Assembly: GCA_020723935.1 (NCBI GenBank) | Contig: DYHY01000005.1 | Location: forward strand, 47,196-56,349 | Direction: 5' to 3' | DNA length: 9,154 bases | Source of the DNA: Candidatus Micrarchaeum sp. | Lineage (GTDB): Archaea > SpSt-1190 > DYHY01 | Shown here: positions 1,079 through 9,154 of the stretch, piece by piece | Layout of the letters: every line of letters starts with the position of its first letter | Numbering within the stretch: the stretch's first letter is position 1 | The notes under the pieces: model-generated | What the model saw: only the letters and a program-made list of their open reading frames with translations | What the model was told of the DNA's origin: nothing | Databases searched by the model: none | Made by a program: the position numbers and the translations under genes

Positions 1079-1119
1079 GGGCCTGCAGACCCCCTTGATA
1101 ACGCACGCTCTGCGGAGCG

Positions 1120-1194
1120 CGGGCCCGGCGGGATTTGAACCCGCGGCCTACTGCTTAGAAGGCAGTCGCTCTGTCCAAGCTGAGCTACGGGCCC
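1120..1194 (-). tRNA. tRNA-Arg (anticodon UCU)
   Basis: Read on the minus strand this folds as a full 75-nt cloverleaf: acceptor GGGCCCG/CGGGCCC, D-stem GCTC/GAGC, anticodon stem ACTGC/GCAGT with loop CTTCTAA (anticodon TCT at 34-36), 5-nt variable loop, T-arm GCGGG-TTCAAAT-CCCGC and discriminator G. It would decode AGA, and AGG by wobble. No intron is seen and CCA is not encoded. A TATA-like TTTATAAAAA lies 28-37 nt upstream. Confidence 0.97.
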
Positions 1195-1785: not shown

Positions 1786-4113
1786 ATGCTACCGCGCCCA
1801 GCACTGACCCCTGCGATCCTCGTCGCGCTCTTCCTCGCACTCGCGCCCCTTCTCATGGCATCCCCGGCGTACGCGGCGCCCGCCCTGACGTGTCAGACGC
1901 CCTGCTTCTCCGGAAGCCCGTGCGCCTGCGCGATCACCACGTGCGACTCGGGCACGCTCGTCATCACCGACTCGACCAGGAACCCGGTCGGAGCCGTCCC
2001 TATCTCCACGGGATCGACGACCTGGGTCCCGCCCGCGCCGGGGACGTTCCAGCTGCAGGCCAACTGCGCGGGATCGCTCTCGAACGTGATGTCGCTCACG
2101 ACCTCCGTCTCGGGCTCGACGACTGTCTCCTCCACGACCGCGGCATCCTCCATCTCGTCGTCGTCGACCACCACGCCCGGCTGTAGCTGCGGGGACTTTG
2201 TCGACAGGGGCTGCGGCCTCGGCTGTCCGGCCGGCTACATGAACCAGACGAGGACCTGCCAGCCCGCGGGATGCCTGTCGGAGACGACGTGCACACTCAA
2301 TGCCGCGTGCTCCGGGAACGCGACGACCACCACCACGATCTACGGCAACGGGACGACGACCACGACGACCCCCGTCGCCACGCAGGTCTGCGGCGACCAC
2401 GTCTGCTACGGCGCCGAGAACTACTTCAACTGCTGCGCCGACTGCGCGGGATGCGCCAACACATACTGCAGCCTCGCGACCCAGGGATGCATCGAGCCCT
2501 ATGACCTTTCCATCGACATACCGACGACGATATACTATTTCTCCCAGTTCCTCCTCTCCCCCAAGCAGGTTCTCGACCGCTCGACGAGCCTCCCGATAGA
2601 CTCCTACACGCTCTGCTGGCAGGCCTCCTGCGACGGGCTGCAGATAGCGAACCTGGGCTGCAACAAGAACGTGTTCTCGATCCCGGCGTCCTCACCCACC
2701 TGCATCAACAGGCTCTCGGCCCTCCTCTCGGTGAACGGGACGCTCTACACCTACGAGTACCCCGTGAAATACCTCCAGCAGCTCAAGATATTCTCCTCGA
2801 TATTCCCCTCTTCGGTCGCAGTCAAGGTCGGGGACCCCTACGCCGAATTCACGCTCACCATCCAGAACCTAGACACCAAGCAGACTGACATAAGGATCTC
2901 CTCGCCCGACGGCCAGGTCCTGATAGGCGGGAACACGAGCTACATCCTTTCGCTCCCCTCTGGGGCGAGCGGCAAGGTCGCCGTGCGCGCCCCGCCAGCC
3001 AACGGGACCTACGCGGTCCAGATGGAGGACGCCAACGCTAGGAGCGAGGTCCAGACGCAGCAGCTCGTCGTGCGCACCACCGAGGTAGCGGGCGGAGGGG
3101 CCGTCCCGCAGCTCTTCTTCGTCGACGCCTCGACATACTTCTCCGTGGAGGGCGGCAGGCGCTCGGAAGCCCAGGCGTACCTCAAGAACGTCGGGGGCAC
3201 CCCCGCCAACTTCTCGCTCTACGCCAAGGGGCCGGGGGCTTCGGCAGTATCCTTCGAGCCGTCCGACACAGTCAGCGTCTTCCCGACCGCCCAGGCCCTG
3301 GTCACCGTCGTCCTCCAGCCTACCTTCTCGACGAACGGCGAGTACGCCTTCTCGGCTTGCGCCTCGCCCGTCTCCGGAGGGCAGGAATCCTGCGTCCCCG
3401 CGACGCTCAACGTCACGTCGCCCGTGAGCGGCAGGTTCGACCTGGGCGTCTCCGTCGACCGCGTCGAGATAGGCGTGTCGGACGCCTTCGCGGACGTCAC
3501 GGTCTCCCTCGCGCTCCTCTCGAACACGACGCACGTCACCGGCTCCTTGGACACCACGTGCCCCGCGGGCGTCGTCACCGCGTCCTGGCTCAACGGCAAG
3601 GAGATACCCGTCGTCGCGAGGAGCTACACGAACACCGTCAGGGTGTCTCCCAAGGGCACGACCCTCTCCTGCTCCTTCGGGGTCGTCGTGTCAGACCAGT
3701 TCGGGAGCCAGAGGGAGGACGTCTCTGTTTCGATCACGCCCTCCTTCTCCGAGGTGAGCTCCATAGTCGACACCGCGAACCGCGCCGAAGCCCTGATACA
3801 GAAGGCCGAGAACGAGGTGATACGCATGAAGGCGACGGGCAAGGACCCGACGCAGCTGCAGCTCGTCGTCTCGGACGCGCGCTCGGACCTTTCGGCGTGC
3901 AGGAGCCAAGTGTCTAGCCACGACTACGACCAGGCGAGGATCGTCTGTAATCAGGCCCTAGAGAAGGCGGAAACGGCACTAGCGGTGTCTAGGTACTCCG
4001 AGGTCGCCGCCCAGATAAACGCGCCGGGCAAGTCCCTCAATCTGATGGTGATAGCCGGCGTAGCGATAGTCCTTATATCCACGACTGTCCTTCTCTTCGG
4101 GAGATTCACATGA
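1786..4113 (+). CDS. Large membrane-anchored, Cys-rich multidomain surface protein (gene C)
   Basis: 775 residues from the ATG at 1786. Residues 1-30 are a signal peptide ending PAYA|AP. Then come a six-Cys module (C36 to C94, same Cys spacing as in A and D), a Ser/Thr linker (about 105-131), a Cys-rich unit from C133 (CSCGDFVDRGCG...NQTRTC, thrombospondin-1-like in appearance), a Thr linker, and a second Cys-rich unit (CGDHVCYGAENYFNCCADC, about 202-235). Several beta-sandwich-like regions follow, one near 443-545 resembling NEW3/CARDB-type domains. A helical, probably coiled-coil region (about 654-745) and one transmembrane helix (about 750-772) end the protein, with FGRFT at the C-terminus. 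The body should therefore lie outside the cell. The stop overlaps the start of gene D (ATGA), implying coupled expression. The domain names are resemblances, not matches to a database; the function is unknown. Confidence 0.88.
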   Translation: MLPRPALTPAILVALFLALAPLLMASPAYAAPALTCQTPCFSGSPCACAITTCDSGTLVITDSTRNPVGAVPISTGSTTWVPPAPGTFQLQANCAGSLSNVMSLTTSVSGSTTVSSTTAASSISSSSTTTPGCSCGDFVDRGCGLGCPAGYMNQTRTCQPAGCLSETTCTLNAACSGNATTTTTIYGNGTTTTTTPVATQVCGDHVCYGAENYFNCCADCAGCANTYCSLATQGCIEPYDLSIDIPTTIYYFSQFLLSPKQVLDRSTSLPIDSYTLCWQASCDGLQIANLGCNKNVFSIPASSPTCINRLSALLSVNGTLYTYEYPVKYLQQLKIFSSIFPSSVAVKVGDPYAEFTLTIQNLDTKQTDIRISSPDGQVLIGGNTSYILSLPSGASGKVAVRAPPANGTYAVQMEDANARSEVQTQQLVVRTTEVAGGGAVPQLFFVDASTYFSVEGGRRSEAQAYLKNVGGTPANFSLYAKGPGASAVSFEPSDTVSVFPTAQALVTVVLQPTFSTNGEYAFSACASPVSGGQESCVPATLNVTSPVSGRFDLGVSVDRVEIGVSDAFADVTVSLALLSNTTHVTGSLDTTCPAGVVTASWLNGKEIPVVARSYTNTVRVSPKGTTLSCSFGVVVSDQFGSQREDVSVSITPSFSEVSSIVDTANRAEALIQKAENEVIRMKATGKDPTQLQLVVSDARSDLSACRSQVSSHDYDQARIVCNQALEKAETALAVSRYSEVAAQINAPGKSLNLMVIAGVAIVLISTTVLLFGRFT

Positions 4114-4301
4114 AAAACGCGGAAGCTTTCCTGGTGGCGACGCTGGTTCTGGCTCTGCTGATGGGGGCGACGGCCGTGCCGGCCCTCGCGGCCCCCTCTG
4201 AGAAATGCCCGGCCACGAACGGGTTCGTGCGCAACTGCATGAGCCTGGACGCCGCAAGGGCCCTCGCCGCGAACGACACCTCGTGGCACGAGGCGTACTA
4301 G
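4110..4301 (+). CDS. Fragment D1: signal peptide and start of the Cys-rich domain
   Basis: 63 residues up to the TAG at 4299. It carries a clear signal peptide (LVATLVLALLMGA...PALA|AP) and two Cys (K-C-P and N-C-M), then stops in the middle of the Cys-rich domain. If translated alone it would be a secreted peptide of about 36 residues. It is more likely the front part of the broken gene. Confidence 0.5.
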   Translation: MKNAEAFLVATLVLALLMGATAVPALAAPSEKCPATNGFVRNCMSLDAARALAANDTSWHEAY

Positions 4302-4352
4302 CTCCCCTGCCACGACACGGACAGCTGCTGCACCGCGACGGAGACGATATGC

Positions 4353-5297
4353 ATGGTGAAGCAGACGCCCACCACCGACCTGTGCAAGCCCGACGGCTCG
4401 ACGATGCGCCAGTGCGGCGCCCTCAACGCGCCCCCTTGGCCCAACGCTACCGAGGACAAGAGCAACCCCTGCCATGACAACGACCAGTGCTGCCCGTCCT
4501 ATCCCGAGCACGTCCACGGGATATGCTACGCAAGGCCCATCCTGCACGTCGTCGCGACGGCGTCCAGCACAATAACGGGCGCGGGCGGCGTCCCCAACTG
4601 GGTCGCCGTGACGCTCTACGGGAACGTGACTAACTACACCGGGAGCCTCGTCGCCGGCTATTTCGTCCCGGATGGCAACTTCACGATAGCGGGGGGCAAG
4701 ACTGGGAACTACACCTTCTCCTCGGGCTCGCAGAGCTACCAGCGCGGGACGTCCCCTGCCTATTACGCCCTCGCCGTCATGGCGGGCGGCAACTTCACTT
4801 CCGGGAACTACACCTTCTCCGTACCCCAGCGCGAGACGCTCGTGGTGACAGCGAACGCCACGCAGACGGCCCTGTCGGACTGGAAGTATTCACTTTCAAT
4901 CACCGCCAACGCCAGCGGCACGCCGGACACGACCGATGTTATGCGCATCTTCCTTGACGGCGCCGAGCTGGCCGCGGACAGCAACATCCCGTATTCCGCG
5001 ACATCGGGCCTGATGGCCGCGGGCACCAACCACACCTACTCGGCGCGCCTTTCCGCGTATTCCGGGAACTTCAGCTCGCCCAACTACACAGTTACCTTCC
5101 CGCCGCGCCCAGCGCCCAGCGTGACGGCCGCCGCCGCCCCCCAGCCGCTGGCCGACGGAAGGGCGGGGATAGGCATAACTGCCATCGTGAACGGCTCGGT
5201 CGCCAGCTCCGACGAGATGCATTTCCTCGTCGACGGCACCGACATAGGGTCGGACAGGACGCAGCCCTACTCGTTCCTCGCGGTGTCCTTCCTGTGA
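4353..5297 (+). CDS. Fragment D2: Cys-rich domain remainder and Ig-like repeats 1-3
   Basis: Same frame as fragment D1 and continuous with it except for the TAG; coding similarity in fact begins at 4302 (LPCHDTDSCC), before this fragment's first ATG. It contains PCHDNDQCC (4467-4493) and Ig-like repeats rich in N-F-T, N-Y-T and N-H-T sequons, and ends at TGA 5295 inside repeat 3. It has no signal peptide of its own, so by itself it would not be exported. Confidence 0.45.
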   Translation: MVKQTPTTDLCKPDGSTMRQCGALNAPPWPNATEDKSNPCHDNDQCCPSYPEHVHGICYARPILHVVATASSTITGAGGVPNWVAVTLYGNVTNYTGSLVAGYFVPDGNFTIAGGKTGNYTFSSGSQSYQRGTSPAYYALAVMAGGNFTSGNYTFSVPQRETLVVTANATQTALSDWKYSLSITANASGTPDTTDVMRIFLDGAELAADSNIPYSATSGLMAAGTNHTYSARLSAYSGNFSSPNYTVTFPPRPAPSVTAAAAPQPLADGRAGIGITAIVNGSVASSDEMHFLVDGTDIGSDRTQPYSFLAVSFL

Positions 5298-5377
5298 GGG
5301 ACGAACCATTCCTACTAGGCGAAGTTCGTGACCGCTGCCGGCACGTTCCAGTCTCCACTCTACTTGATATCGCTCCC

Positions 5378-5389
5378 GTCGGTCGGTCG
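5378..5389 (+). repeat. GTCG x3 microsatellite at the frameshift in gene D
   Basis: Three perfect tandem copies of GTCG sit where the reading frame changes. The size of the shift fits loss of one copy (-4) or gain of two (+8), so slippage here is a natural cause. Confidence 0.7.
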
Positions 5390-6229
5390 ACGGTCGCCGC
5401 ATCCGCGTCGGTGCTCGCCATGCAGAACGGGTCCCAGGGTCTAAACCTCACCGTCCCGGTCCTCAATTACAACAAGACGGCGACGCGCGTGCACGCCTTC
5501 GTCGACAACGCCTCGAGGGCCCAGGCGACATCCAAGCCCTACAACTGGCTCGTCGGGCCGTTCCTCCCTGGGACGACGCACTCCTATTTCGTCAAGGCCG
5601 TGACCGCCGACGGCAACTTCACCTCGGCCGTCTCGCAGGTGATGATCCCGCTCCCGCCCGGAGAAGTAGCGCCCGTCCTCACCTGCCCGTCCAACTGCTC
5701 GGTCTACCGCGCCTGCACATGCGGGGCGGCGAACTGCGACGACAACGGGACGGTCTACATAGCCCAGGCTACTTCCGGCGCTCTAGTCCCCAAGAAGGTC
5801 CACTCCGGCCAGATGTCCGTTGTCCCCCTCTCGGCGGGATCATACACCCTCCAGGCCGAATGCGGCTCCAAGAGGTCGCAGGCAGTGACCATCGGCGTCC
5901 TGGAGACGCAGCTACGCATAAACCTCACCGCCTTCTCCTGCACCCTCCTCGACAAGCGGACCTGCACGCTCACGGTGTCCAGCAAGAACATGGTCCCAGT
6001 CGACCTCTTCATCCTGGGGATGTCGAGGACCGACGGCTTCTCGGCCCGCTCGTCGGTGAAGCGCTCGACGACCGGCTGGACGGGCCCGAGGACGATAACG
6101 TTCGACGACATCACCTACGACGGCGGCAAGCCCGAAGATTTCGACCTCGCGCTCTACATCTATCCCAAGGACGTCTACATAGACCTCCCCGCGGCCTTCG
6201 CCTACATCTTCCCGCCGACGATCGGGTAG
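5385..6229 (+). CDS. Fragment D3: Ig-like repeat 4, six-Cys module, C-terminal module
   Basis: Homology to gene A in this frame begins near 5385 (VGRSTVAASASV) and runs to the TAG at 6227. Upstream of that the frame is open from GTG 5294 but encodes nothing similar. The first internal ATG is at 5420. It shows FVDNASRAQ and HSYFVKAVTADGNFTS (repeat 4), six Cys with the shared spacing, and the FSC-x7-C / DLFILG / YPKD module. It has no signal peptide. This is the best-preserved part of the broken gene. Confidence 0.5.
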
Positions 6230-8635: not shown

Positions 8636-8696
8636 GGGTTTTTTCCCGCGGGAGGGGAACGTGGCGGGCCAGCCTGCCTGGCCTCAACGGGACCGG

Positions 8697-8734: not shown

Positions 8735-8811
8735 TGGCGGGCCTGCCGGGATTTGAACCCAGGTTTGCGGCTTCGGAGGCCACCGTTCTGTCCAAACTAT
8801 ACTACAGGCCC
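8735..8811 (-). tRNA. tRNA-Arg (anticodon CCG), CCA encoded
   Basis: Minus-strand cloverleaf of 74 nt plus CCA: acceptor GGGCCTG/CAGGCCC, anticodon stem GTGGC/GCCGC with loop CTCCGAA (anticodon CCG), 4-nt variable loop, T-arm CTGGG-TTCAAAT-CCCGG, discriminator G at 8738. CCA follows directly in the DNA (8735-8737), unlike the other two tRNAs here. The D-stem GTAT/GAAC is weak, with an A-A mismatch. It reads CGG. A TATA box lies 25-33 nt upstream. Confidence 0.93.
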
Positions 8812-8877: not shown

Positions 8878-8952
8878 GGGCTCGTAGCGCAGTTTGGATA
8901 GCGCGAGTGGCTTCGAACCACTAGGTCGAGGGTTCAAATCCCTCCGGGCCCG
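8878..8952 (+). tRNA. tRNA-Arg (anticodon UCG)
   Basis: 75-nt cloverleaf: acceptor GGGCTCG/CGGGCCC (one T-G pair), D-stem GCGC/GCGC, anticodon stem AGTGG/CCACT with loop CTTCGAA (anticodon TCG), variable loop AGGTC, T-arm GAGGG-TTCAAAT-CCCTC, discriminator G. It reads CGA and other CGN codons by wobble. CCA is not encoded. Its last 11 bases (8942-8952) are also the first 11 bases of the 53-bp repeat unit that follows. Confidence 0.97.
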
Positions 8953-9154
8953 CTCTCCTTCCTTCGCGTTCCCGGGATTTCGCCCTGGCTCAACCTCCGG
9001 GCCCGCTCTCCTTCCTTCGCGTTCCCGGGATTTCGCCCTGGCTCAACCTCCGGGCCCGCTCTCCTTCCTTCGCGTTCCCGGGATTTCGCCCTGGCTCAAC
9101 CTCCGGGCCCGCTCTCCTTCCTTCGCGTTCCCGGGATTTCGCCCTGGCTCAACC
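8942..9154. repeat. Perfect 53-bp tandem repeat, 4 copies plus 1 base, running off the window
   Basis: Copies start at 8942, 8995, 9048 and 9101 and are identical; base 9154 begins a fifth. Each unit opens with CTCCGGGCCCG, the T-stem end, acceptor strand and discriminator of tRNA-Arg(UCG). The next 42 bp are unlike the tRNA. There are no variable spacers, so it is not CRISPR. The period is not a multiple of three and no open coding pattern is kept. It may be a true expansion at a tRNA 3' end or an assembly loop at a contig end. Confidence 0.9.

Follow-up and report, generated by a model that had tools for sequence, protein, structure and literature searches.

The question raised by this locus is how a perfect tandem array can start inside a tRNA gene and run to the last base of a contig. 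The window, meaning the whole 9,154-nt stretch analysed, comprises the final 9154 bases of contig C27 (56,349 bp), from the archaeal MAG G000 (1.14 Mb, 47 contigs). TRF identifies one array only: a period-53 tract at 8941-9154, 214 bp in length, with 100% matches and 4.0 (4.04) copies, which stops at the contig's last base. This agrees with the preliminary description of a perfect 53-bp tandem array seeded by the 3' end of tRNA-Arg(UCG), a gene that ARAGORN places at 8878-8953. That description had the array begin at 8942 with 11 tRNA bases. The start within the tRNA end is correct, but the exact point lies one base earlier, at 8941, and the tract opens with the 13 3'-terminal nt of the tRNA (CCTCCGGGCCCGC). 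Chance is excluded as the origin of the array. The features of the window are:

8878..8953, + strand: tRNA-Arg(TCG), which seeds the array (ARAGORN; Rfam RF00005, 68 bits)
8941..9154, + strand: period-53 tract to the contig end, which is also the window end (TRF)
8941..8953, + strand, with copies at 8994-9006, 9047-9059 and 9100-9112: tRNA 3' tail CCTCCGGGCCCGC, exact at shifts of 53, 106 and 159
8954..8993, + strand, repeated at 9007-9046, 9060-9099 and 9113-9152: 40-nt non-coding cassette between the tail copies (from the sequence)
8976..8995, + strand, repeated at 9029-9048, 9082-9101 and 9135-9154: right-end motif of the cassette, GATTTCGC...GCTCAACC (pattern search)
8941..8995, + strand, recurring at 8994-9048, 9047-9101 and 9100-9154: 55-mer, presumed to be the k=55 graph vertex at the contig end (214 = 55 + 3x53)
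8735..8811, - strand: tRNA-Arg(CCG), the divergent neighbour (ARAGORN)
8661..8674, - strand: degenerate copy of the tRNA-Arg(CCG) tail, 13/14, 73 nt downstream of the gene (GGCAGGCCCGCCAC / GGCTGGCCCGCCAC)
1119..1194, - strand: tRNA-Arg(TCT) (ARAGORN)
1071-1079, - strand: weak 9-nt copy of the tRNA-Arg(TCT) tail, alone near chance level (tail comparison)
1076-1093, - strand: hairpin GGGGGTCTGCAGGCCCCC preceding the tRNA-Arg(TCT) tail copy (from the sequence)

Away from these features, a long surface-protein-like frame at 4112-6229 carries in-frame stops at about 4300, 5297 and 5317. This interrupted frame possibly reflects a decaying gene or assembly errors.

Copies of tRNA tails downstream of tRNA genes

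A second tract in the genome, C11e, is a tandem of the tRNA-Pro(cgg) tail, and its presence prompted a search for tail copies at all tRNAs of G000, in which RF00005 finds 43 tRNA genes. A strong copy of the tRNA's own tail lies within 300 bp downstream at 10/40 tRNAs and a weaker copy at 21; swapped tails give 0/320. When matches of at least 9 are counted at 39 tRNAs, 54% have one downstream, as compared to 6% with the tails of other tRNAs, and 0% have one upstream. As a control, tRNA heads at the same threshold match upstream in 3% of cases and never downstream.

The copied segment extends from the T-loop to the 3' end and measures 9-25 nt; the direct repeat starts at about -22 to -9 relative to the tRNA end and extends to that end, at times continuing 1-9 nt past it. 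The copy reaches 25 nt for Ala-cgc (including 6 nt of trailer), 22 for Met and 16 for Leu-caa. Copies ending at the tRNA 3' end are also found for Gly-ccc, His, Pro-cgg and Arg-tcg, among others.

The comparison across genomes used a single threshold of at least 11, with tRNA borders from ARAGORN, neighbouring tRNAs masked and swapped tails as the control. Tail copies are found at 10/40 tRNAs in G000, 9/30 in G001 (same family), 7/21 in G002 and 5/20 in G007, while the 1/24 in G005 is not significant. Pooled over these five genomes, this amounts to 32/135 against 7/1080 swaps (p=7e-26). Other archaea give 0/24 (p=0.003), a set that is small and rich in tRNA-Arg. The array is one instance of an arrangement seen across the lineage: short and mostly non-coding cassettes lie behind tRNAs, and a copy of the respective tRNA's tail closes each of them.

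Two further loci were noted in this survey. The C1 end (L220) and the C47 end (L208) overlap by 15 bp; joined there, tRNA-Ala(ggc) would have a second copy of its 5' start (GGGCTGGTAGTTC) on its upstream side, a rare 5'-side duplication. A tail match of tRNA-Ser(cga) in G001, at +985, was rejected as chance because it lies inside a long open frame resembling a kinase gene.

Cassette families, folding and cargo

The DNA between tRNA and tail copy measures 40-180 bp, with approximate borders, and is non-coding and organized in sequence families. In G001, nine tRNAs are followed by 105-181 bp of such DNA with common sequence modules. All-against-all blastn of the G001 downstream regions yields 39 similar pairs (3 of them trivial neighbours) against 0 in shuffles, and the upstream regions yield the 3 neighbours only. 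The same comparison gives just 6 similar downstream pairs in G000, against 0-1 in shuffles. As a separate observation, the G001 cassettes L255, L275, L280 and L284 contain a double-hairpin module of nested form (CCCAAxTTGC..GCAAxTTGGGCCCAGTTGC..GCAACTTGGG), whose position differs among them, as if it had itself been inserted.

For the window's own unit, the full 53 bp has no further match elsewhere in G000, and its 26-mer core is absent from the genome_contigs collection. The search for other copies of the 42-bp part beyond the tRNA bases, proposed in the preliminary description, likewise finds none at full length; its 20-bp right end, however, has further copies, variable in the middle, next to two other tRNA genes only. 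In 1.14 Mb, the motif GATTTCGC(N4-28)GCTCAACC is confined to the array and to the DNA behind tRNA-Met and tRNA-Leu(taa), and the reversed control occurs 0 times. The pattern was picked after its three loci had been viewed, so its informative part is the absence elsewhere. The right-end motif ties the 53-bp unit to a cassette family.

The cassettes of the relatives typically form three hairpins, the first adjoining the tRNA end and the last adjoining the T-loop of the tail copy. Folding z-scores range from -2.3 to -4.9 in G001 and reach -6.0 for the G007 Thr and -4.6 for the G002 Met cassette. A hairpin lies just 5' of the tail copy, with nominal significance in each of three sets: G001 (Wilcoxon p = 0.002), G000 (0.011) and other class members (0.047). 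Stem sequences vary between genera. In the middle stem, 3/9 pairs are changed on both sides and 0 on one side only; this count comes from a single stem in a small sample of four sequences, as MAFFT on whole cassettes aligned hairpins poorly. Folding is weaker in G000, and the 40-nt cassette of the window has no fold (z +0.5). Because of this, and because it is much shorter than the cassettes of relatives, it could be a plain tandem duplication whose family resemblance is due to chance.

In G001, three tail-bounded segments carry genes. A 678-bp segment behind tRNA-Leu(tag) (L280) encodes an RHH antitoxin and a ParE-type toxin; a 1316-bp segment behind tRNA-Glu(ttc) (L283) encodes a Fic protein; and a 1285-bp segment behind tRNA-Ser(gga) (L270) encodes a nucleotidyltransferase (MNT) and a HEPN protein. 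At its left end, the toxin segment has the hairpin that also forms the left end of the non-coding cassettes; 22 exact bases are common to it and the Leu-taa cassette.

In G007, an identical 69-bp cassette lies behind tRNA-Val(gac) and tRNA-Val(cac), closed in each case by that tRNA's own tail. The two tails differ at several positions, and the upstream flanks of the loci are unrelated. Insertion with tail duplication would explain an identical cassette with tRNA-matched tails, and replication slippage does not. The arrangement fits mobility, and gene conversion between the paralogous tRNA-Val loci is a possible source of the identical cassette.

Proposed insertion at tRNA 3' ends and its alternatives

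Taken together, these data suggest, with a probability of about 0.6, that the array arose by tandem duplication of a single mini-cassette bounded by tRNA tails, and that the cassettes are miniature non-autonomous elements inserted site-specifically at tRNA 3' ends. Insertion is the mechanism we infer as most likely. In this mechanism, a miniature non-autonomous cassette would insert at the tRNA 3' end, the tail serving as a recombinase attachment site or being duplicated as the target site. The tRNA would be left intact, and a spare tail would stay downstream of the cassette. Stacks like the 53-bp array could then arise when more cassettes enter at the spare tail or when tails recombine with each other.

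Such a reaction calls for an enzyme. The preliminary description had suggested stacked attachment-site products or a tRNA-derived satellite. The attachment-like, tail-derived character of the units is borne out by tail copies across the genome and the lineage, whereas their production by an integrase is unproven: a search for an integrase gene, as that description had proposed, finds the tyrosine integrase PF00589 0 times in G000 and 0 times in each of 7/9 relatives, with positive controls at 14/14 and bins 72-91% complete except G003. The tyrosine integrase of G006 has no tRNA nearby. Cas1 (PF01867), the criterion for a casposon, is absent from G000, and the Y1 transposase PF01797 (HUH, IS200/IS605-type) is absent in nine genomes. 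A reverse transcriptase (PF00078) is present in 1/9 genomes, G001, and so is not general among cassette carriers. These absences are weak for each genome, as the bins are incomplete, and consistent across genomes. The element may depend on a helper from other mobile elements or on an enzyme outside the families searched. A wider reading is offered tentatively, as a possibility: an unrecognised archaeal cassette system, spread through the lineage, would recombine at the 3' tails of the cell's own tRNA genes. Its cassettes would be non-coding with three hairpins or, occasionally, of toxin-antitoxin type, and the enzyme moving them would belong to none of the known integrases, casposases, HUH transposases or reverse transcriptases.

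The negative recombinase searches also suit an account with no mobile element, in which tRNA genes stall replication, tail and trailer are duplicated in tandem by slippage or unequal recombination, and the copies then decay. Plain tandems of tail and trailer do occur in G000, at His (54), Gly-ccc (159), Leu-taa (60), Pro-cgg (75) and Arg-tcg (53). In relatives, however, the tail is repeated and the cassette is not, cassette families are common to unrelated tRNAs, and entire genes lie between tail copies. Copies never occur upstream of the tRNA, and the G007 pair of tRNA-Val genes combines one cassette with tRNA-matched tails. This account is therefore rather unlikely.

More doubtful still is a function as tRNA-linked RNA, in which the three-hairpin cassette would be co-transcribed and the second tail kept under selection as a processing or decoy signal (e.g. 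for RNase Z). The recurrent hairpin architecture, the compensatory changes in one stem, the fixed junction of hairpin and tail and the constant placement of the cassette on the tRNA coding strand are as expected of such an RNA. Against this, the cassettes are patchy among tRNAs and between genera, turn over fast and have decaying tail copies, toxin genes replace the cassette in some segments, and Rfam, across 17 sources, returns tRNA matches only, with no known RNA family in the cassettes.

Insertion of miniature cassettes at tRNA 3' ends would have parallels in several systems. In integrons, small cassettes that each end in a recombination site beside a hairpin are stacked behind a fixed entry site, toxin-antitoxin cassettes among them. 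The cassettes here are alike in size, in the hairpin-adjacent site, in stacking behind a fixed entry and in toxin-antitoxin content, but their site is the tRNA's own tail, and IntI, a PF00589 protein, is not found in most genomes. The 178-bp repeats of E. coli tyrT (rtT RNA) are tandem units that start with the tRNA gene's last bases, directly downstream of it. That is a single locus with a longer unit, whereas the pattern here is lineage-wide and has cassette families. CIMEs are gene-bearing relics at a single site; here, by contrast, sequence families extend across many tRNAs, each with its own tRNA's tail. Casposons encode Cas1, not seen in G000, and have terminal inverted repeats. They nevertheless resemble the cassettes in that they insert at the 3' ends of tRNAs and duplicate the tail (PMC6563490).

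That elements integrate at tRNA 3' ends, using att sites located in the gene's 3' part, is established from work on archaeal iMGEs (PMC6563490) and on partial tRNAs (PMC9897764). The anatomy is shared: in tyrosine-recombinase integrative elements at tRNAs, as here, the direct repeat runs from in or near the T-loop to the tRNA 3' end or just past it, the tRNA stays intact, and some segments carry toxin-antitoxin cargo. Those elements usually extend over kilobases (9-23 kb in PMC9897764), encode an integrase and are found at few tRNAs of a genome; in the genomes that PMC6563490 singles out, for example, four tRNA genes are occupied. Here, in contrast, the segments are 40-180 bp, non-coding and present at a quarter to half of the G000 tRNAs, and an integrase is not found. 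Accretion of att-bounded modules is also known (IME review, PMC5704250): in CIMEs and site-specific accretion, modules that lack a recombinase gene of their own stand one behind another at a single site, as here. The cassettes are grouped with known tRNA-end elements because their tail anatomy matches known att sites. A literature search for rtT/tyrT repeats and archaeal tRNA-tail cassettes found no description of tiny, hairpin-rich, non-coding cassette families at a large share of the tRNAs of several genera, each with its tRNA's own tail.

Integration at tRNA 3' ends is well known as a matter of rare kilobase islands with an integrase. Here, tiny cassettes ending in the gene's own tail lie behind a quarter to half of the tRNA genes of a small archaeal genome and behind many of those in sister genera. 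If mobile, such cassettes would rank with the smallest known site-specific elements and would offer small genomes an integron-like route to toxin-antitoxin genes that leaves the tRNAs unharmed. The tail copies provide a simple searchable signature.

Copy number and the assembly graph

The four identical units of the preliminary description are not a measured count. When both ends of the G000 contigs were compared (four contigs read N), the ends within each of the groups C28s/C29s/C45e, C15s/C21e, C22e/C29e/C37s and C8e/C9s proved to have exactly 55 bp in common, which indicates an assembler of the de Bruijn type, for example metaSPAdes, run at k=55. Tandem repeats form loops in a de Bruijn graph, and a contig that enters one breaks off once it has covered k plus a whole number of periods. 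Six tracts equal 55 + n x period: the array (214 = 55 + 3x53), C11e (205 = 55 + 2x75), C28e (239 = 55 + 2x92), C17s (249 = 55 + 2x97), the scaffold gap behind tRNA-Leu(taa) (115 = 55 + 60) and C18s (67 = 55 + 12). Some repetitive contig ends (e.g. C8e and C19e) break the rule, as expected where an end has another cause. The contig stops where the 55-mer 8941-8995 recurs for the fourth time, and together with the shared 55-bp ends this makes the four printed copies the assembler's count.

The assembler loop raised in the preliminary description accordingly determines how many copies are printed, but the duplication of the unit is very probably genuine. For a k=55 graph to contain a loop of 53, the 55-mer must recur in reads, and hence at least about 108 bp of period 53 must be present, so at least about two copies very probably exist in the genome. 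A pure artefact, with a single unit in the genome and the repeats made by the k=55 loop, would account for a contig that ends inside the array, for the exact 55 + 3x53 and its five parallels and for the shared 55-bp ends, but is very improbable given this read requirement, the His and Gly-ccc tail arrays inside contigs with unique flanks, the one-base difference between the C8/C9 copies and the tail copies in separately assembled relatives. An iteron or origin-like array, also suggested at first, has no support and was dropped because like anatomy lies behind many tRNA genes across the genome.

At least six G000 contig ends (C1, C11, C20, C27, C30 and C34) have a tRNA gene no more than about 200 bp away, and tail repeats appear to break the assembly there. 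Tail copies may account for contig breaks at tRNA genes in such genomes. Two other contig ends were noted: at the C28 end (L189), the 92-bp tandem tract (55 + 2x92) overlaps the apparent 3' end of an open reading frame, and the starts of C17 (L052) and C14 (L049) hold a period-97 repeat with palindromes (CCACTTCATCCCCCTCTGGGGATG), partly common to both and also a k=55 loop.
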